From: Verrucomicrobiota bacterium JB024
GTDB taxonomy: Bacteria; Verrucomicrobiota; Verrucomicrobiia; Opitutales; Cerasicoccaceae
Assembly (NCBI GenBank): GCA_030673825.1
Contig: JAUTCS010000092.1
Span: 1-48,953, forward strand
Reading direction: 5' to 3'
DNA: 48,953 nucleotides
In this document: in pieces, positions 27,094-36,175 of the stretch
Layout of the letters: every line of letters begins with the position of its first letter
How positions within the stretch are numbered: the stretch's first letter is position 1
Program-made: the position numbers and the translations under genes
Notes under the pieces: generated by a model
Seen by the model: the letters and a program-made list of their open reading frames with translations, nothing else
Told to the model about the DNA's origin: nothing
The model's database searches: none

Positions 27094-29643
27094 ATGGTCA
27101 TGCAACTTCCCGCTCCTTTCAGACGAACCATAATTTTCCTGCCTGTGGCGACACCCTCCATCACCCCCAAAGACCTGCTGCTCCAGCCCCACGCCGGTAT
27201 GAACGGTCTGCCATCGGTCGAAATACTCGATGAAGACGCCAATGGCGCGCGCGCGTACGAGCTCAGGTCCGAGCAGCCCTTGCGCGACGATTTTCCGCCC
27301 GAGGGGCGACTCCGTATCGAGGAGCCGCCAGTGGGGCCAAGGTGCCGCAGCGGCAGCGTGCGCTTCGACGCGCTCTACGCGATGGCGGTTCAAGAAGCGC
27401 GGCAGAACGCCGTTTCTCGGGTTAGCGACGCCGACTACGCGCACGGGAAAGACTTCGAGGCCGACGTGTATCAGACCGGGGAGCAGTGGCATTTCGTGTG
27501 GACGCGGGACCTGGCCTACGCGCTTCATCTGGGGCTGGCCCTTTACGACCCCGAGCGGGCCATGCGCTCGCTGCGCTTTAAGGCCTCGGAGGTTAAAGCC
27601 TGCGTGAAGGGCGGGTTCCGGCACCAGATCGTGCAGGATACCGGCTCGGGCGGGAGCTACCCGGTCTCGACGGACCGCGTCGTCTGGGCGCTCGGCGCAC
27701 ACCAGACAATGTGTTGCCTGGATCCCGCGCGGCGAACCGCGTGGCGGGCGGAGATATTTCCCTTTCTGCGTGACACCATCGAGCAGGATCGGCGGCTGAT
27801 TTTCGACGAGGTGGACGGGCTCTATCGCGGGGAGCAGTCGTTCCTGGACTGGCGTGAGCAGACCTATCCGCAATGGACGGCGGACAACGTGCTCGCCATC
27901 GCCATGTCCAAGGCCCTTTCCACCAACGTCGCCCACGTTTTCATGTTGGAGACGGCCTCGGCCTGTGCCCGCGAGCTGGGGCACCCGGCTGAACATGAGC
28001 GTTATGCGAGCTGGGCACGTGAGTTGCGGGAGGCGGTCAACCGCGTCTTTTACGACGAGGGCGAGGGTCTGTACCGGGCCTACCAACTGACGGAATCCGG
28101 CGCATGCGCCCTGCCGGTCAAACGCTATGACCTGCTCGGCCAATGCCTGGCGATTCTCTTTGATATCGCGGACGAGGAACGCGCCCGGCGGATACTGGCC
28201 CGCTATCCGGTCGGCAGACACGGCCCGCCCGTGGTTTGGCCGCAGGAGGCGGGAGTTCCCATTTACCACAATCAGGGGATTTGGCCGTTCGTGACGGCAT
28301 ATTGGCTCAAGGCGGCCCGCAAGGTGAACCACGTTGCGGCGGCGGATGCCGGGGTCCGTTCCCTGGTCGAACTGGCCGCGTCCAATCTCTCCAACATGGA
28401 AAACTTCGACTTCGTATCCGGGCTCGCCCATGTGACCGCGGGCGAGCGGGTGGGGCCCGTCATCAACTCCCGGCGCCAACTGTGGTCGGTCGCCGGGTAC
28501 TTGTCCCTCGTCCACGAGGTGGTGTTCGGCTTCCGGGCGACGGAGGAGGGGCTCCGCCTGGAGCCCTATGTTACGGCCTGGATGCGGCGTTCGCTTTTTG
28601 CCCGGAGCGCGCAGATGGAGATCAAGGACTTGCCCTATCTGGGGACGGCCAACGACATTTTGGTTCACCTCCCGCCTGCGGCGGAGTTTAACTCCGCCGT
28701 CGCCCGTTGCGTCCGTGTGCTGCTGAATGGCACGGATGTGACCGGGCGGACTCTTTCCGCCTCCGACCTAAGCCCCCACAACGCTTGGGAGGTCTTTCTG
28801 GAGGCTTCCGGTGGAGACATCGCCGTCGATAACCTCCGTACAGTCAATGCCCGGGATGGCATCTACTGTCCGGCGGTCCCGGAATGGGACGATGTCTCCG
28901 GGGCAATCCAACCCGAGGATGGCCGACTGCGCCTGAGTTTTATCCAATCCTCGGATCCCCGGATCGTCGTCGATATTTTCCGTGACGGGCAGGTGTGCGC
29001 TCGGGGGATCACGCAGGGAGAGTGGGTGGACCCCGACTCGGGCGCGTATGGAGAACAAGTTTACACCTACCACCTCGTGAGCCGCCATCTGCACTCGGGC
29101 TTTACGTCCCATCCGACACCGGGGCGCAGCACCCGTAGCGCCGGGCAGTCGGTGCGCATCCCAGCGGCGCAGATGCCGTCTGCGCGGGAACATGGAGACG
29201 AACGCGGCCCGCTGGAGCGTTGGGGCAGGCCGGAAGATGTCATCGACCTGCGGGAGGTGAGGGTGCCCCGCACCGGACGCTACGCGGTGAGAGTCGAGTT
29301 CTCCAACGGCTCCGGCCCGATCAATACCGGCATCACCTGCGCGGTGAAGCGTCTGGATGTGCTGGCCCAGGCCAGCGGCGAGGTGATCCGCTCGGCCTAT
29401 GTGGTCATGCCGCACTCGGGCAGTTGGGACAAGTACGCGCTGTCCAACTCGCTGCTTGTTGATCTGGATGAGAAGGCGTATTATCACCTGCGCTTGCTCG
29501 AAGACCCCCTCTCACGGAATATGAGCTACCTGGCCTGCAACGAAAAGTACACCGCGCGGGCCGGTGGCGGCGACGCTTGCTATAACTTTATCAACCTGGC
29601 GGGAGTCCACCTCTCGCTCATCAACGCCAGTCAGAACCAGTGA
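27094..29643 (+). CDS. Six-hairpin (alpha/alpha)6-barrel glycosidase
   Basis: An 849-aa protein. Residues about 85-530 have the pattern of (alpha/alpha)6-barrel glycosidases related to glycogen-debranching and GH15/GH63-like enzymes. Motifs include WHFVWTRDLAYALHLGLALY with a likely catalytic Asp, GGSYPVSTDRVVWALGAHQT, YPQWTADNVLAIAMSKAL, and PPVVWPQEAGVPIYHNQGIW with a second candidate acid residue in WPQE. The C-terminal ~280 residues are beta-rich and resemble a carbohydrate-binding jelly roll (YAVRVEFSNGSGPINTGITC). No convincing signal peptide is seen, so it may act on imported oligosaccharides. The exact linkage is not decided by sequence. It is divergent from the LacI gene, and its stop codon overlaps the next start (TGATG), showing tight coupling with the GH66 gene. 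Confidence 0.75.
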   Translation: MVMQLPAPFRRTIIFLPVATPSITPKDLLLQPHAGMNGLPSVEILDEDANGARAYELRSEQPLRDDFPPEGRLRIEEPPVGPRCRSGSVRFDALYAMAVQEARQNAVSRVSDADYAHGKDFEADVYQTGEQWHFVWTRDLAYALHLGLALYDPERAMRSLRFKASEVKACVKGGFRHQIVQDTGSGGSYPVSTDRVVWALGAHQTMCCLDPARRTAWRAEIFPFLRDTIEQDRRLIFDEVDGLYRGEQSFLDWREQTYPQWTADNVLAIAMSKALSTNVAHVFMLETASACARELGHPAEHERYASWARELREAVNRVFYDEGEGLYRAYQLTESGACALPVKRYDLLGQCLAILFDIADEERARRILARYPVGRHGPPVVWPQEAGVPIYHNQGIWPFVTAYWLKAARKVNHVAAADAGVRSLVELAASNLSNMENFDFVSGLAHVTAGERVGPVINSRRQLWSVAGYLSLVHEVVFGFRATEEGLRLEPYVTAWMRRSLFARSAQMEIKDLPYLGTANDILVHLPPAAEFNSAVARCVRVLLNGTDVTGRTLSASDLSPHNAWEVFLEASGGDIAVDNLRTVNARDGIYCPAVPEWDDVSGAIQPEDGRLRLSFIQSSDPRIVVDIFRDGQVCARGITQGEWVDPDSGAYGEQVYTYHLVSRHLHSGFTSHPTPGRSTRSAGQSVRIPAAQMPSAREHGDERGPLERWGRPEDVIDLREVRVPRTGRYAVRVEFSNGSGPINTGITCAVKRLDVLAQASGEVIRSAYVVMPHSGSWDKYALSNSLLVDLDEKAYYHLRLLEDPLSRNMSYLACNEKYTARAGGGDACYNFINLAGVHLSLINASQNQ

Positions 29644-31838
29644 TGACGCTGCCCCTTCCCCTGTTTCCCTCCCGCCTGCTGCCTGCGCTCGCCTTTGCCC
29701 TGATGCTTCTGGGTGGCCGCGCTGCGTCCGAGGCGGCAAAGACCGCCGCACCGGAGGAGCCGATGGACGTAACGTTTCAGCAATCCCTGAAGGCCGCCGG
29801 GCCCCCGCTGGTGGGGACCGCCGGGGTCCTGTTCCGTTTTACGCCCCCGCAGGAACTGGACGTAAAGCAGGTCCACCTGGCCGGTTCGTTTAACAGCTGG
29901 GCCAGCAACGACGATGGCGTGATCCGCGGCTCGCGCTTCGCCATGCGCCGGGCGGATTCCGGCGTCTGGTACAAGCTGATCGATCTGCCGGAAGCGCAAT
30001 TCGAGTACCAGTACGTGGTGGAAACCACGGACGGAGCCATGATCTGGATCGCGGACCCGAATGTGGACGAGCGGGACGGGAGCAATTCGGTCGGGCATCT
30101 GGGCCGGATGGCTACGCTGCCGGGAGAAGCGGCAACCGCGTTGCCGGAGGCATCGCCGCTCCTGCAACTGTCGGCGGGCAAGGTCTGGGCCTCCCCCGGC
30201 CAGCCGAACACCATCAGCGCCCGCGTGCAAGCGCCGGAGCCCGGGATGACCCTGCACCTGCGCGTCACGACACCGTGGGGGCGGGAGCTTTATTCGGACT
30301 CCGAGCCGGTCAGCGGGGCGGAGAATGTCCTGCCCGTGCCGGGCTTTCCCGCGATTGGCGGCTACGTGGCACAGGTCGCGCTGACTTCTCCGGGTGGGAA
30401 GACGCTGGCCATTGATCGGGTCATCCTCTCCGTGACGGACGAGCCCGAAGACGACTTGCGCTACGGGTTTTTCGCCAGCTATCCCGACGAGCCCGCAGAC
30501 TACACGGCCAAGGCGGACATGCTGGCGGACCTGTACATCAACGCGGTCGAGTTCTACGACTACTTCCCGGCTCACGGCAACTACGCCCCGCGGCGCGAAA
30601 CGTATCAGTTCGAGCCTTTCGGCATCGCCATCAACGGCCTCGACGTGAAGGCGAAAATCGAAGCCTGCCAACGCAAGGGGATTCTGGCTCTGGCCTATAT
30701 CGCCGCCTACGCCGCCTCCGAAAGCGTGTACCGCGACATCCCCGATCCGATGACGGACGCCCAGGGTGAGCCGAAGATCTTTAACGGCGAAATCATGACC
30801 GAACGCCGGGCCGACGCCGAAGGTAAACAGAAATGGTTCTGGCTCATGAATATCTCCGAGGGCTCGCGCTGGCGCTCCTATATCATGCCGGAGCTGGAGC
30901 GGGCGCTTCGCCCCGGCGACGGGGACATCGTGGCCTTTGACGGTTTTGAAATCGATACCTACGGAGACAACGCCGACGCGCGCTTCTACGCGGATGGCAG
31001 CCGCTATGACGGCGAACCACTCGCGGAGGTGCTCCAGGGCTTCGTCGCCGATGTCACCGAGATGACCCGCCGGACCAAAGCACACGGCCTGGTGTCTTTC
31101 AACAGCGTCAACGAGTTCGGGGTGGAGAACATGTACGGGGTGACGGACTTTCTCTTTCTGGAGATCTGGCGCTGGCACGCCCCGATGCTGAGCGACCTGG
31201 TGGACATCTGTTTTCATCACCGGGGAGCTCGCAACCAGCGCGTTATCCTCAAACTCTATCCCGCCGACATGGACCCGCCCCGCTCGACTTGGCCGCCGCT
31301 GGCCCTGGCGCGACTCCTCGGAGCGGCCATGACGGGCGGCGGAAGTCTCATGGTGGTCGGCGAGCCCGATGAAGTGACGGGCCGGATGCACGGCCTGAAC
31401 TCCCTCTTCTACCCGGACCACCAGCCCCTCAGCGCTGAGAGCGAGGCGCTGCTTAAGGCCTACTACGCGCACGATGCCATGCTCTACGGCTACACCCACG
31501 GGCGCGAGGTGAACAACCGGGACGCCTACGTCTCTGTCGAGGGTTGCGTAACGCGCTCCTTCGTCGCCCCGGACCGCCGGGCGCTGTGCCTGCAAATGCT
31601 GAACCTTGGCAATGAGCCCAAATGGTCGGAAGTCCCCGGCTCTGTTTCGGTGAAAAAGAATTTCCCCGTGTCGATGACGCTTCCCGACGGGGTGCGTCCG
31701 ACCGCGGTTTTCTATGCCAGCCCGGACAGCCCGCAGTACCAGCTCCCGGTCGAACTTCCTTTTGAGCTTCACGATGGCCAGGTGCAGTTCTCCGTCCCCG
31801 AACTGGCTGTGGTCGGCACCGTCATCGTCCAGTACTGA
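29643..31838 (+). CDS. GH66 dextranase-like enzyme with N-terminal CBM48
   Basis: A 731-aa exported protein (hydrophobic signal LLPALAFALMLLGGRAASEA). Residues about 55-150 are a CBM48/isoamylase-N-type domain (VLFRFTPPQELDVKQVHLAG, SFNSWASNDD, FEYQYVV). The catalytic part starts near 265. It has the GH66 blocks INAVEFYDYFPAHGNYAP, KGILALAYIAAYAASESVY and AFDGFEIDTYGD; Asp438 lies at the nucleophile position of the family. GH66 enzymes are endo-dextranases or cycloisomaltooligosaccharide synthases acting on alpha-1,6-glucan. The CITase-type inserted CBM35 is not apparent, which favours dextranase. A CBM48 in front of GH66 is unusual, because that module normally accompanies GH13 enzymes. Start codon overlaps the upstream stop. 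Confidence 0.8.
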   Translation: MTLPLPLFPSRLLPALAFALMLLGGRAASEAAKTAAPEEPMDVTFQQSLKAAGPPLVGTAGVLFRFTPPQELDVKQVHLAGSFNSWASNDDGVIRGSRFAMRRADSGVWYKLIDLPEAQFEYQYVVETTDGAMIWIADPNVDERDGSNSVGHLGRMATLPGEAATALPEASPLLQLSAGKVWASPGQPNTISARVQAPEPGMTLHLRVTTPWGRELYSDSEPVSGAENVLPVPGFPAIGGYVAQVALTSPGGKTLAIDRVILSVTDEPEDDLRYGFFASYPDEPADYTAKADMLADLYINAVEFYDYFPAHGNYAPRRETYQFEPFGIAINGLDVKAKIEACQRKGILALAYIAAYAASESVYRDIPDPMTDAQGEPKIFNGEIMTERRADAEGKQKWFWLMNISEGSRWRSYIMPELERALRPGDGDIVAFDGFEIDTYGDNADARFYADGSRYDGEPLAEVLQGFVADVTEMTRRTKAHGLVSFNSVNEFGVENMYGVTDFLFLEIWRWHAPMLSDLVDICFHHRGARNQRVILKLYPADMDPPRSTWPPLALARLLGAAMTGGGSLMVVGEPDEVTGRMHGLNSLFYPDHQPLSAESEALLKAYYAHDAMLYGYTHGREVNNRDAYVSVEGCVTRSFVAPDRRALCLQMLNLGNEPKWSEVPGSVSVKKNFPVSMTLPDGVRPTAVFYASPDSPQYQLPVELPFELHDGQVQFSVPELAVVGTVIVQY

Positions 31839-31842
31839 AGGC

Positions 31843-31857
31843 GTTTAACTGTCAAAT
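31843..31857 (+). promoter_or_regulatory. Candidate LacI-type operator upstream of the PEP-CTERM gene
   Basis: GTTTAACTGTCAAAT, 5 bp after the GH66 stop codon and about 85 bp before the structured RNA. A TATCTG hexamer at 31873-31878 could be a -10. A weaker look-alike, CAACTGTCGAAAT, lies just before the start codon at 32096. Confidence 0.4.
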
Positions 31858-31926
31858 CCTGCCAAACTGGAGTATCTGCCCACGCTAAACAAAACTAACC
31901 CCTGTCATCGTTAATTAGGATGTGTA

Positions 31927-32054
31927 CCTTTCGCATGGACCAGGCACCGAGGGGCTGTCCGCCGGCAATCCCGGATTGCGCGGTGGTCGGTTTATGGGTT
32001 TCTGCACCTCGGTGTGCCTCAGGGGGATTCAGCCCTTGGGGGTCATGCGAAAGG
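31927..32054 (+). ncRNA. Structured, pseudoknotted leader RNA of unknown class
   Basis: Outer stem: CCTTTCGCATG (31927-31937) pairs perfectly with CATGCGAAAGG (32044-32054), extended by ACC/GGT. Second stem: AGGCACCGAGG (31942-31952) pairs with CCTCGGTGTGCCT (32007-32019), with a 2-base bulge. Apical hairpin: CCGC-CG-GCAATC pairs with GATTGCGCGG around a CCG loop at about 31959-31983. A pseudoknot is possible: GGGCTG (31952-31957), inside stem 2, is complementary to CAGCCC (32030-32035), outside it. The element ends 41 nt before the PEP-CTERM gene start, so it lies in that gene's 5' leader. I do not see the conserved cores of TPP, cobalamin, FMN, glycine, c-di-GMP, SAM, T-box or glmS elements. 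It could be a riboswitch, a protein-binding leader or a separate RNA. Confidence 0.6.
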
Positions 32055-32095
32055 GCACCTGCTTTCTATCTCACGCCTAACCCAACTGTCGAAAT

Positions 32096-32878
32096 ATGAA
32101 TAAACTAACTACTCTTGTCCTCGCCTTGGCGAGCGGTCTTGCGCTGCCTTCACTGGCCTTCTCTGCGACTGTCGGCACGGATAATGCGAGCGCTTCCGCC
32201 TATGATAGCGGATGGGTGGATGGGACCGACGGTTCCATCACCGGTCCCGGTGCCTATGGCATGTGGTTCCTCAACCCGGATACCTCGGATATCACCCACG
32301 AGACGGCCAGCGTCTCCAGCCTCAGCAGTAACGCGCCCCTGCTGGATACCAACGGGGTGTCGTTTCGCATGGCCGGGACCAATGGGGCCGAGGCTACCGC
32401 GTTCCGCTTCATCGATCCGGGTGGTCTGAGCGCGGGGCAGAGCTTCTCCATCGACATCGCGGTGAACTTCCGCAACGGCTACAAGGGGATCGACCTGCGT
32501 GGAACCTCGGAGGAGACCATCTTCAACTTCAATGTCGGCGACGACGATTATGTCGTGAACAGTGCGGCCACCGGTAACGGGAGCATCGGCAACACCTACA
32601 GCGACGACACGCTCTTCCACATCGTCTTCACGCAGGACTCCGCCTCCGGGGGTACCTGGTCGATCACCCGCAGCGGCGGCGTGGACGACTACGCCAGCGG
32701 CACCTACGACGGCGTTGCCCGGAGCATCAAGCTGTACGTGGGGTCCACCGCCGGTACCGACGCCGACGCGCTGTTTTTCAATAATCTCTCCACGATCCCC
32801 GAGCCTGGCCAAATGGCCGTCCTTTTCGGGGTGGTCGCCTATGGGCTTGTCGCCCTGCGCCGCAGGAAAAAGGCCTGA
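32096..32878 (+). CDS. PEP-CTERM sorting domain protein
   Basis: A 260-aa exported protein with an N-terminal signal (MNKLTTLVLALASGLALPSL, cleavage after AFSA). The mature part is Ser/Thr/Gly/Asp-rich, with the strand pattern of a lectin-like jelly roll (FRFIDPGGLSAGQSFSIDIA, then IDLRGTSEETIFNFNVGDDD). The C-terminal sorting signal has three parts: IPEPGQ, a membrane helix (MAVLFGVVAYGLVAL) and RRRKKA. Exosortase is expected to cleave at the PEP motif and hand the protein to the cell surface or matrix; no exosortase gene is in this window. Its place among glucan-degrading genes suggests a surface glucan-binding role (inference). A structured RNA and a candidate operator lie upstream; a strong terminator follows. 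Confidence 0.88.
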   Translation: MNKLTTLVLALASGLALPSLAFSATVGTDNASASAYDSGWVDGTDGSITGPGAYGMWFLNPDTSDITHETASVSSLSSNAPLLDTNGVSFRMAGTNGAEATAFRFIDPGGLSAGQSFSIDIAVNFRNGYKGIDLRGTSEETIFNFNVGDDDYVVNSAATGNGSIGNTYSDDTLFHIVFTQDSASGGTWSITRSGGVDDYASGTYDGVARSIKLYVGSTAGTDADALFFNNLSTIPEPGQMAVLFGVVAYGLVALRRRKKA

Positions 32879-32903
32879 GTCAGGCGGTTTTGTTGTGCCA
32901 ATC

Positions 32904-32944
32904 AAAGAGCGGTCCGGCAGTGCATGCCGGGCCGCTCTTTTGTG
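32904..32944 (+). terminator. Intrinsic terminator of the PEP-CTERM gene
   Basis: Long stem AAAGAGCGGTCCGGCA / TGCCGGGCCGCTCTTT with loop GTGCA, one internal mismatch, followed by TTGT. It starts 26 bp past the stop codon. Confidence 0.88.
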
Positions 32945-32979
32945 TTGGAATAAAGACGGATGGGGCAGGATGGCCCGGC

Positions 32980-33188
32980 CTGATCGCGGCGGACGCCGGG
33001 ATCAGACAGTTCCTCGTCAGGATGGATAAATGAGATCCGCTGCGGATGACCGCTGAGGGAACTCGAATGTTGTTTATACGACCACCGTTATCCGCGTTTT
33101 GCCCGTGGCTAAGTCATGATCTCGAACCGAATGTGAAGGGGATGAAAGGACGACCCGAAAGGGCCTAACTCTTTGCCTGTAACGGTGG
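32980..33188. other. Intergenic region with several inverted repeats (possible RNA)
   Basis: This stretch lies between two converging terminators and has no credible ORF. It contains CTGATC (32980-32985) / GATCAG (33000-33005), and AGTTCC...CAG (33008-33020) / CTG..GGAACT (33053-33063). CCACCGTTA (33082-33090) / TAACGGTGG (33180-33188) encloses ~90 nt that includes a CCCGAAAGGG tetraloop hairpin near 33153. This density of pairing suggests one or two stand-alone RNAs, but the strand cannot be decided and chance pairing in GC-rich DNA is possible. Confidence 0.3.
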
Positions 33189-33212
33189 CTTCCGATCTGC
33201 CCGACCTTCCTG

Positions 33213-33266
33213 CTAATAAAGAAGGCCTGTGGCCCGGGTGGTGATTTGCACCCAGGGCCACAGGCC
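33213..33266 (-). terminator. Intrinsic terminator of the pullulanase gene
   Basis: Stem GGCCTGTGGCCC (33224-33235) / GGGCCACAGGCC (33255-33266), 12 bp and perfect, extended inward by GGGTG/CACCC. On the minus strand it is followed by TTCTTTATTA. It lies 29 bp past the pullulanase stop codon. Confidence 0.9.
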
Positions 33267-33295
33267 ATGTGGTCTGATGTCTGCGAAAACGGGAG

Positions 33296-36175
33296 CTACT
33301 CCTGATAGAGTACCGTGACGGCGGTGCCCTCGGCTACGATACTGCCGGATACCGTGCGTCCGTTGCCCTCGGCTGGGTCGGCTTTTTCGATGGCCACATG
33401 CCAGGTACCCGAGGGGAGGGTGACGGTTGTGTTCGGGCCGGAGTTGTAGATGACGAATATCTCGCTCCAGCCGTCGGCGTTGTTGGCGGCACCGTGGATG
33501 TGGTTGACGAGGACGGTGGAGGTCGGGCTGTAGGTGGTGATGTTGTCGGTGATCTCCTGCCAGGTGTTCATCCGAAAGCCGGGATGCGCCCGGCGGGTGC
33601 TGATGAGGTCCTGGTAGTAGGCGAAGATGTCGAGGTTGTCGGCCTTGCGCTGCCAGTCGAACTGGTTGATCGCATCGGGCGACTTGTAGCTGTTGCTGTC
33701 GCCCTGTTTGGTGCGCAGGAACTCTTCGCCACCGTGGAGGAAGGGAATGCCCTGCGAGGTCAGGACGATCCCGTTGGCGAAGGTTGAGATGCGCTTCTTG
33801 TAGGTTGAGTCGCTGACGCCGTTCAAGCTCGCCCACGCTTCGATCTTGTCCCACAGGCAGAGGTTGTCGTGGGCGGAGACGTAGTTGATGCACTGCTCTG
33901 GATCGTTGGCAAACATCGAGTCCCAGGTGTTGACCGTGGTGCTGGGCGTATAGGCGTAGCGGATCGCCCCCCGGTTGCCGACCTGGATCTCCCACATGTT
34001 AGCGAGCTGGTTAAAGGCGAAGCCGCCGCCATTGCCGTTGTCGTTGTTGCCCTTGATCGCTTCGCGCAGCTTGGGATTGAAGCAGCCGACATGGGAGTCG
34101 GCGATGAGTCCGACTGTGCCCAGCCGAACGCGGTCGGCCTCGTTGGGATCGGTGGCGTAGCCGTTCCAGGGCTCGCCGTAAATCAGCAACTGGCGATCGG
34201 GGAAGCGGGCCTGCAGATAGTCGGCCCAGGCAGCCACCTCCGCGTAGTCGAAGATACCGATCAGGTCGAAGCGGAATCCATCGACCCCGATCTCGCCGGC
34301 CCAGTACTCGAGCGAATCTCGGATCATGCGGCTGACCATGGGGACGCGCGGGTTGATCGAGTTGCCGGTCCCGGCCAGCCCGTAGGTTCCGGGCGCGTTG
34401 GTGTTGAAGTAATCCATCGTGATGTCGGAGAACATGTTCTCACCCTCGGGGTGGGAAAACTGAATGTTCCCGTTGCCATCCTCGGTCTCGATGACCCACG
34501 TGTGGTTGTAAACCACGTCCATGATGACGCGGATGCCGTTGGCGTGCAGGATGTCGATCATCTCCTTGAGCTCGCGGATGCGCCCGTGGTAGTCATAGGG
34601 ATCGACCGCGTAGCGCTCCTCGGGGACATTGTAGTTTTCCGGATCGTAGCCCCAGTTGTAACTGTCCGGTTGGGCGTCGGGGTCCTTGGCGGAACACGTC
34701 CCGTAGTCAAAGATGGGCAGGAGCTGGACATGGGTAACTCCCAGGTCGATCAAGTGCTGGAGACCGGTGCTGACGCCGCTGTAGCTGGTGCCGGGCTGGA
34801 CCATGCCGAGGAATTTTCCGCGTTTGTCCGTGTCGACGCCGCTGGAACTGTGGATGGTGAAGTCGCGCACGTGCACTTCATAGACGACGGCGTCCTCGCG
34901 CTCGGCCAGAGCGGGCGCGGCAACGCGTCCGCCGCTGGGGGTGGTTTGGAACGGATCGATCACGATGTTGGTGTCTGTGCCCGGGATGACCATGCGCCCG
35001 TAGGGGTCGCGCACCTGCACATCGTCGATGAGAAAGGCGTACTCTTTCAATACAAGGTCGCCGTAAACCTGGATGGCGTACACATCGGTGTAGCCGTCGG
35101 CATCGGGCTGCTTGAGCATCGAGTACACATCCCCGTCGATGAACAGCTTGACGTTGGCGGTGTCGGGGGACCAGATGGCGAAAGTGGTCAGCTCAGGGGA
35201 ATAGGCATGCCCGAGTTTGACCGTCTCGGCGGCGTCGGTCAGCGTGGCGGTGTAGGCGAGCGTGTCGTCGTTAAAGGTGATGACGTAGCGGCCGGGGGAG
35301 ACGTAGATGTCGGCGCCGCCGTTTTCGGCGGTCCCGTCGGGCTGGTTGTCGCCGTAGTATTCGGACCAGTCGCCATAGCGGTCGAACTTGAACCGGTCGG
35401 AAGGCTGACCGACGAAGTTGGCCTCGATCACCCATGTGTGGTCACCGACGAAGGTCATGGGCGCGTTGCCCCAGCCGTTGAGCGTGCCGCGGAAGTAAAC
35501 CTGGTCAAAGTTTCGTGCGCTCATATTGGCGAAGCTGTACGCGTGCGTCTGGTCGTTGAGCGTGATCAGGTAGTTGCCCGCCGCCGGGATGGGGATGTCC
35601 GCGCCGTTGGGCTCGACCGTGCCGTCGAGTGCCGTGTCGCCGAGCTTGCCCGCCCAGCTTTGCGAGGTGTCGAAAACGAAGCGGTCGCCCGGATCACCGG
35701 CAAAACTCAGCTCGGCCTGCCAGGTGTCGTGATCGACGAGGACCATGGGGCAGCTCAGGTCGAAGCCGTTGGCCGTGCCCCGGACATAGACTTCGGTGTA
35801 GTTGCGCCGCATGACAGCGTAGGCGAGGGTCTCGTCGTCGAAAAGGATCCGGTAGGAGCCCGGCCCCAGAGGCGGGAAAATGTCCCCGCCGTCCGGTTCG
35901 GCGATCCCGTTGGCGTCGGTGTCGCCGTAGTTGCCGGAGAAATCGTAGGAGGTGTCGAACTTGAACCGGTCATCGCCGTTGGCGTCGCCGAGCCCGTTGA
36001 AGGTGGTATCGGTCAGCCACAGGTGGTCGTCGATGAGCACCATCGCTTGCGTGTTCCAGTTGTTGGGAGTCCCGCGAAAATTCAGCTGACTGAAATTACT
36101 GACCTGGCCGGATGCGGGACCACCTGCCAGCAGGGGGAGGATCGTGAGGAGCAGATAACAAGATCGGGTTTTCAT
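33296..36175 (-). CDS. pulA: Type I pullulanase (GH13) with three N-terminal modules
   Basis: Secreted alpha-1,6-debranching enzyme, 959 aa, with a signal peptide (MKTRSCYLLLTILPLLAG). Residues about 28-310 are three ~95-aa repeats. Each opens like FRGTPNNWNTQAM or VRGTANGFDLSCPM, has a DRF-F-FD block in the middle and ends like YRILFDDETLAYAV. They resemble small starch-binding modules and the N-terminal modules of the amylase at 42320. A CBM48 follows (about 318-415), then the catalytic barrel. It has YNWGYDPENYNVPE (pullulanase signature), DVVYNHTW, GFRFDLIGIFDY (nucleophile Asp about 637), YGEPWNG (acid/base Glu about 668) and SAHDNLCLWDKI (Asp about 770). I start at the ATG of the signal peptide; the frame runs 12 codons further up. 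Candidate operators lie in the 472-bp gap shared with the divergent GH31 gene. Confidence 0.93.
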   Translation of the reverse strand: MKTRSCYLLLTILPLLAGGPASGQVSNFSQLNFRGTPNNWNTQAMVLIDDHLWLTDTTFNGLGDANGDDRFKFDTSYDFSGNYGDTDANGIAEPDGGDIFPPLGPGSYRILFDDETLAYAVMRRNYTEVYVRGTANGFDLSCPMVLVDHDTWQAELSFAGDPGDRFVFDTSQSWAGKLGDTALDGTVEPNGADIPIPAAGNYLITLNDQTHAYSFANMSARNFDQVYFRGTLNGWGNAPMTFVGDHTWVIEANFVGQPSDRFKFDRYGDWSEYYGDNQPDGTAENGGADIYVSPGRYVITFNDDTLAYTATLTDAAETVKLGHAYSPELTTFAIWSPDTANVKLFIDGDVYSMLKQPDADGYTDVYAIQVYGDLVLKEYAFLIDDVQVRDPYGRMVIPGTDTNIVIDPFQTTPSGGRVAAPALAEREDAVVYEVHVRDFTIHSSSGVDTDKRGKFLGMVQPGTSYSGVSTGLQHLIDLGVTHVQLLPIFDYGTCSAKDPDAQPDSYNWGYDPENYNVPEERYAVDPYDYHGRIRELKEMIDILHANGIRVIMDVVYNHTWVIETEDGNGNIQFSHPEGENMFSDITMDYFNTNAPGTYGLAGTGNSINPRVPMVSRMIRDSLEYWAGEIGVDGFRFDLIGIFDYAEVAAWADYLQARFPDRQLLIYGEPWNGYATDPNEADRVRLGTVGLIADSHVGCFNPKLREAIKGNNDNGNGGGFAFNQLANMWEIQVGNRGAIRYAYTPSTTVNTWDSMFANDPEQCINYVSAHDNLCLWDKIEAWASLNGVSDSTYKKRISTFANGIVLTSQGIPFLHGGEEFLRTKQGDSNSYKSPDAINQFDWQRKADNLDIFAYYQDLISTRRAHPGFRMNTWQEITDNITTYSPTSTVLVNHIHGAANNADGWSEIFVIYNSGPNTTVTLPSGTWHVAIEKADPAEGNGRTVSGSIVAEGTAVTVLYQE

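Follow-up and report, generated by a model that had tools for sequence, protein, structure and literature searches.

An apparently genuine structured mRNA-sense element, absent from Rfam, upstream of a PEP-CTERM-like gene in two sister species of Verrucomicrobiota

The closest described counterparts of the element reported here are structures that determine which part of a bacterial transcript is preserved. In papBA of E. coli, a hairpin (the 5' stem-loop) has an RNase E cleavage site on its upstream side, and the downstream mRNA for a surface protein survives (PMC5927463). In malE-malF, according to PMC5927463, a pair of genes in a sugar locus is likewise separated by a structure, but there it is the upstream gene that is protected, whereas no more than 37 nt separate the element described below from the start of the downstream gene. 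It differs from malE-malF also in having no similarity to other sites in its genome.

The window (the whole stretch of 48,953 nucleotides analysed here, from Verrucomicrobiota bacterium JB024) contains a structured element between a glycosidase gene and the gene of a putative surface protein (Table 1). The arrangement agrees with papBA in several respects: a structure stands between an upstream gene and one that encodes an abundant surface protein, a hairpin of the terminator type is found at the 3' end, and the genome encodes RNase E/G (RNase_E_G, E 8.9e-99). In contrast to papBA, where the upstream gene is a regulator, it is a glycosidase here; the two structures have no homology, and the fold here is much larger and consists of several stems. 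As an mRNA leader or intercistronic structure, the element is of an ordinary kind.

Table 1. Features of the GH66 to PEP-CTERM-like gene region, in positions of the window
Feature	Position	Strand	Remarks
GH66 gene, dextranase-like, upstream	29640..31838	+	PF13199, E 2e-32
Whole structured element, 135 nt	31924..32058	+	GTAC to GCAC (GTAC in sister); fold and alignment with sister G007
P1, 5' strand	31924..31938	+	partner strand 32043-32058; purine 32054 bulged
P2, inner stem	31942..32019	+	31942-31952 with 32007-32019
Proposed pseudoknot	31952..32035	+	GGGCTG 31952-31957 with CAGCCC 32030-32035; not supported
P3, bulged central hairpin of 12 pairs	31959..31986	+	31959-31970 with 31974-31986
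P4, small hairpin	32019..32040	+	32019-32025 with 32033-32040
P1, 3' strand	32043..32058	+	pairs with 31924-31938
Spacer, element to ATG	32059..32095	+	37/37 identical to sister
Downstream gene; 260-aa product with PEP-CTERM-like tail and signal peptide	32096..32878	+	tail and signal peptide by eye
Terminator-like hairpin, 16 pairs, after PEP-CTERM-like gene	32904..32941	+	fold z -4.87; within top conserved-fold windows

The surrounding genes, pullulanase-like, GH31 with CBM25 and MalK-like, indicate a locus of sugar use. The downstream gene had been assigned to the PEP-CTERM type, and a PEP-CTERM-like tail is indeed present; however, its product reaches 13.7 bits against the Pfam PEP-CTERM model, below the cut-off of 20.7, and has no Pfam or NCBIfam match at E<=0.001. 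The genome as a whole yields 63 PEP-CTERM-like matches at E<=1. A pattern scanner (GC-rich hairpin plus U run) found no terminator-like site in 31839-32095, and no sigma-70 promoter is listed in 31780-33300. The same scanner missed the hairpin behind the PEP-CTERM-like gene, and it lists part of another long hairpin (33224-33266, between convergent genes and probably a terminator) on the minus strand. Directly behind the GH66 stop, at 31844-31856, stands the near-palindrome TTTAACTGTCAAA; in all seven GH66-carrying genomes of the family, inspection by eye shows TTAACTGT in the same place, with CAAA or TTAA after it, and we regard 31844-31856 as a candidate for a site where a regulator of the downstream gene binds.

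The fold of the element exceeds chance. Positions 31927-32054 reach a minimum of -71.3 kcal/mol (z -5.61), which none of 200 dinucleotide shuffles equalled, and in a scan of the whole sequence (6512 windows of 135 nt, both strands) 31924-32058 and the overlapping window at 31921 have the most extreme GC-corrected energies. Good folding is limited to the mRNA-sense strand: the 135-nt stretch reaches -73.2 kcal/mol on the plus strand vs -57.2 kcal/mol on the minus strand. The better bounds of the element are 31924-32058 rather than the 31927-32054 given earlier, because P1 of the sister species runs on to GTAC at either end.

A single DNA homolog, 85% identical and in the same place, is present in the sister species of the same genus, the locus of which is colinear with at least 21955-45229 of the window at 89% identity. 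Both the perfect 11-bp outer stem (CCTTTCGCATG/CATGCGAAAGG) and the bulged apical hairpin that the earlier note had described are present in the window. Among the 15 pairs of P1, 11 are invariant, three show one-sided, wobble-compatible changes, and one is A-C in the window vs A-U in the sister; the window keeps 14 of these pairs and the sister all 15. P3 retains its 12 pairs in both species, two of them changed on both sides (compensatory) and three on one side, with pairing probabilities of 0.90-1.0 in the window and in the sister. On the plus strand, each of the six one-sided changes found in P1 and P3 is compatible with G-U pairing, as would be expected of an RNA and not of a DNA palindrome. 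The pairs of P4 are invariant between the two species (pairing probability 0.70 and 0.68). Folded together with its flanks, the best fold of the sister lacks P1.

Two further pairings fare less well. The inner stem P2 exists, but the 11 pairs ascribed to it (AGGCA/TGCCT plus CCGAGG/CCTCGG) require a bulge of 2 nt; its pairing probability is 0.99 in the window and 0.19 (P2b) in the sister, in which it is unstable, and on present data it is not a conserved feature. The two 6-mers of the pseudoknot, which was to cross this stem, are likewise where they had been placed, yet the pseudoknot itself is not supported: of its six pairs, five are invariant and the sixth does not form in the sister; chance would be expected to produce such 6-mers, the 128 nt having two GC-rich complementary 6-mer pairs vs a mean of 1.18 in mononucleotide shuffles; and the probability of the crossing pairs is 0.00 for the window and 0.03 for the sister, values from an algorithm without pseudoknots, which show only that nested folds win. 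GGGCTG/CAGCCC might still pair transiently, though this has no support.

When the 23-kb alignment of the two species is scanned in windows of 135 columns, the element ranks 8th of all 4596 in consensus folding by residual energy, with a z of -4.43 on the plus and -1.82 on the minus strand. Seven windows rank above it; their first positions fall in 32809-32869, and every one includes the terminator-like hairpin behind the same gene. The covariation observed is reached by 105 of 500 shuffles, statistics of low power given two homologs only. An extreme fold confined to the mRNA sense, pairing that is kept in the sister, and the failure to match a known family agree with the structured leader RNA that had been proposed: none but a tRNA elsewhere in the window reaches its gathering score among the 4227 models of Rfam 15, and at E<=10 the element itself meets only the lncRNA model Six3os1_1, at a meaningless 10 bits vs 50. 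On present data we regard the element as a real-looking, structured, mRNA-sense element of two sister species. Judged by title and start of abstract, none of the publications listed in a literature search deals with an element of this kind, although this does not prove that there are none.

The distribution of the element is narrow. A DNA homolog search recovers it from two of ten family genomes, and so does a covariance model (R1) built from the window and sister sequences, at E<=10 and with one site per genome. In larger samples, which overlap and above 40 genomes are subject to stricter filters, R1 gave nothing convincing: the best other matches have E 0.235 in 372 genomes of the order, E 0.00133 (29.7 bits) in 384 of the class and E 0.067 in 288 of the phylum. 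Of the eight weak R1 loci, all but L052 fall within long frames without stops, and these seven were put down to chance. DNA searches of the 372 order genomes added nine matches, 24-36 bases long and with E 0.0002-0.01, where some four would be expected; the eight of these with loci show no R1 score above 10.8 bits. The element was matched neither in phage and plasmid collections nor, with one exact gapped pattern, in viral contigs (0 matches). In its own genome it finds only itself by BLAST (the other 21 matches have E 0.7 or worse) and is the single match of R1; a leader shared by PEP-CTERM genes is not seen. A search of genome contigs with the PEP-CTERM-like protein gave two loci.

The GH66 gene is present in seven of the ten family genomes. 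In homologous intergenic regions the stems had been expected to be conserved and to covary, and this expectation is borne out in part: five of the seven GH66-carrying genomes lack the element, GH66 being followed in them by a PEP-CTERM-type gene from the same family, but the sole homolog keeps P1 and P3 by compatible changes. Either the common ancestor of both sister species gained the element or several losses took place; of the two, gain is simpler. For two family genomes (L027, L029), the frame matched as the PEP-CTERM ortholog is reported to contain one TAG.

Our best explanation, which we hold tentatively, is that the element may act in cis, as a lineage-specific intercistronic or 5'-UTR structure that stabilises the PEP-CTERM-like mRNA in the manner of papBA. 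A stabilised cistron of this type fits because the intergenic region has no terminator-like site, a strong and stable fold lies 37 nt before the gene, near the 5' end of the downstream cistron, a hairpin closes its 3' end, RNase E/G is encoded in the genome, and the start region is invariant and mostly unpaired (mean 0.73 and 0.59 in the two species). The transcript of GH66 and the PEP-CTERM-like gene would be cut, or transcription would begin, just upstream of 31924, and the closed P1 stem would then form a protected 5' end. With this structure at one end and the terminator hairpin at the other, the surface-protein mRNA would outlive the enzyme mRNA; as an outcome, more surface protein than enzyme would be made, and no ligand would be needed. 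Co-transcription, cleavage and half-life are what we infer here. Against stabilisation counts that five related genomes manage without the element, as do the low power of the covariation statistics, the loss of P1 when the sister is folded with its flanks, and, as detailed below, the mixed mutation tests, the unremarkable energy of the sister and an identity close to that of fourfold sites.

The same five genomes, in which the equivalent intergene is without the element, speak for an alternative that we consider unlikely: a small mobile hairpin, MITE-like, that became fixed and is perhaps functionless, with P1 as its terminal inverted repeats and GTAC as a possible target duplication. Like such hairpins, the element has about 135 nt and inverted ends, which are perfect and bordered on both sides by GTAC in the sister; in the window the borders are GTAC and GCAC, and the empty site is too diverged to place the join. 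However, MITEs occur in several copies in a genome or its relatives, whereas neither BLAST nor R1 at E<=10 found a second copy in the same genome. The end sequence is not over-represented in the ten family genomes either (36 matches with <=3 mismatches, against 56 for a reversed control), and fewer than 2 mismatches to it are found only in the two elements themselves. Moreover, a DNA element would not need the preference of the fold for one strand. A mobile hairpin is a possible origin of the element, one without other copies in the genomes searched.

We also consider it unlikely that the element is a leader responding to a ligand or a protein, riboswitch-like or bound by a regulator, which would control the surface-protein gene. 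Several stems in a long leader before a start codon are what the riboswitches and cis-regulatory leaders in Rfam have in common with it, and the unpaired conserved stretches (e.g. 31993-32002, 10/10 identical in the sister), the location in a sugar locus and the complete identity of the 37 bases up to the ATG would suit such a role. Most described riboswitch classes, however, are not known to be limited to one site per genome in two sister species, and the element differs from the Rfam leaders further in its lack of a family match and of a visible expression platform: no terminator-like site stands between it and the ATG, no alternative terminator or fold sequestering a ribosome site was seen, and the start region is largely open. 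The aptamer core of a riboswitch would be expected to be conserved and to covary in numerous homologs; the two homologs here provide two compensatory pairs, not beyond shuffles. For the sensing of a metabolite, which the earlier note had envisaged, there is no positive evidence, and the missing terminator or start-site switch and the restriction to one site in two sister species tell against it. On present evidence there is no sign yet of a new riboswitch class. The spacer is the most conserved of all stretches compared in the locus and has no obvious purine-rich ribosome site.

That a neutral insertion folds by chance of its GC-rich composition, without any RNA function, seems rather improbable to us, although tests with unbiased mutation are mixed. 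With the best fold of the window alone as a start, the sister retains 46 of 52 pairs, and random mutation does as well in 26% of trials (P 0.26), while the sister's own best fold as a start gives P 0.018; the result for the consensus structure (4000/4000) is circular, the structure having been fitted to both sequences. The energy of the sister is unremarkable among mutated window sequences (P 0.10-0.12), and that of the window is extreme among mutated sister sequences (P about 0.001). Identity is near neutral: it amounts to 112/135 in the element, is no lower elsewhere in the locus, and is slightly lower at fourfold sites (275/371 and 108/137). Folding upstream of 30 of the 63 PEP-CTERM loci, with guessed starts, gave z below -4 in 3/30. 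These three stretches lie upstream of other PEP-CTERM genes of the same genome (L065, L080 and L086), and some may be terminators of the preceding genes. Chance folding is nevertheless opposed by the z of the element, by its extreme position in the entire window, and by a conserved-fold rank behind only the windows of the terminator-like region.

An ORF at 31935-32099 has 54 codons, with an ATG inside P1 and a stop that overlaps the PEP-CTERM-like start as ATGA; the frame-shifted open version in the sister ends 7 bases further on. That this frame is translated and couples translation to the PEP-CTERM-like start, the folds merely modulating, is very improbable: both species are open from the ATG in P1 to the start-codon overlap, but all three plus-strand frames are open through the element in both, which makes openness uninformative, a one-base deletion shifts the sister's frame after the sixth codon so that the peptide is not conserved, and by eye no ribosome-binding site is seen. 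By eye, too, the loop GGTTTAT is complementary to ATAAACT in the first PEP-CTERM codons. It would be a long shot to read the element as a new, lineage-restricted regulatory leader in which the invariant stretch at about 31987-32002, bounded by P3 and by the 3' strand of P2, swaps partners and so sets translation of the surface protein by glucan supply; the partners that might be swapped are P3a, GGGCT/AGCCC, or the first PEP-CTERM codons (GGTTTAT to ATAAACT).

If the element is transcribed and functional, it would represent a recently gained RNA structure by which one surface protein is tuned separately from the sugar enzyme next to it, in a bacterium with dozens of PEP-CTERM-like genes. Because close relatives have the same gene pair without the element, the locus would then provide a compact case for the origin of new mRNA structures.
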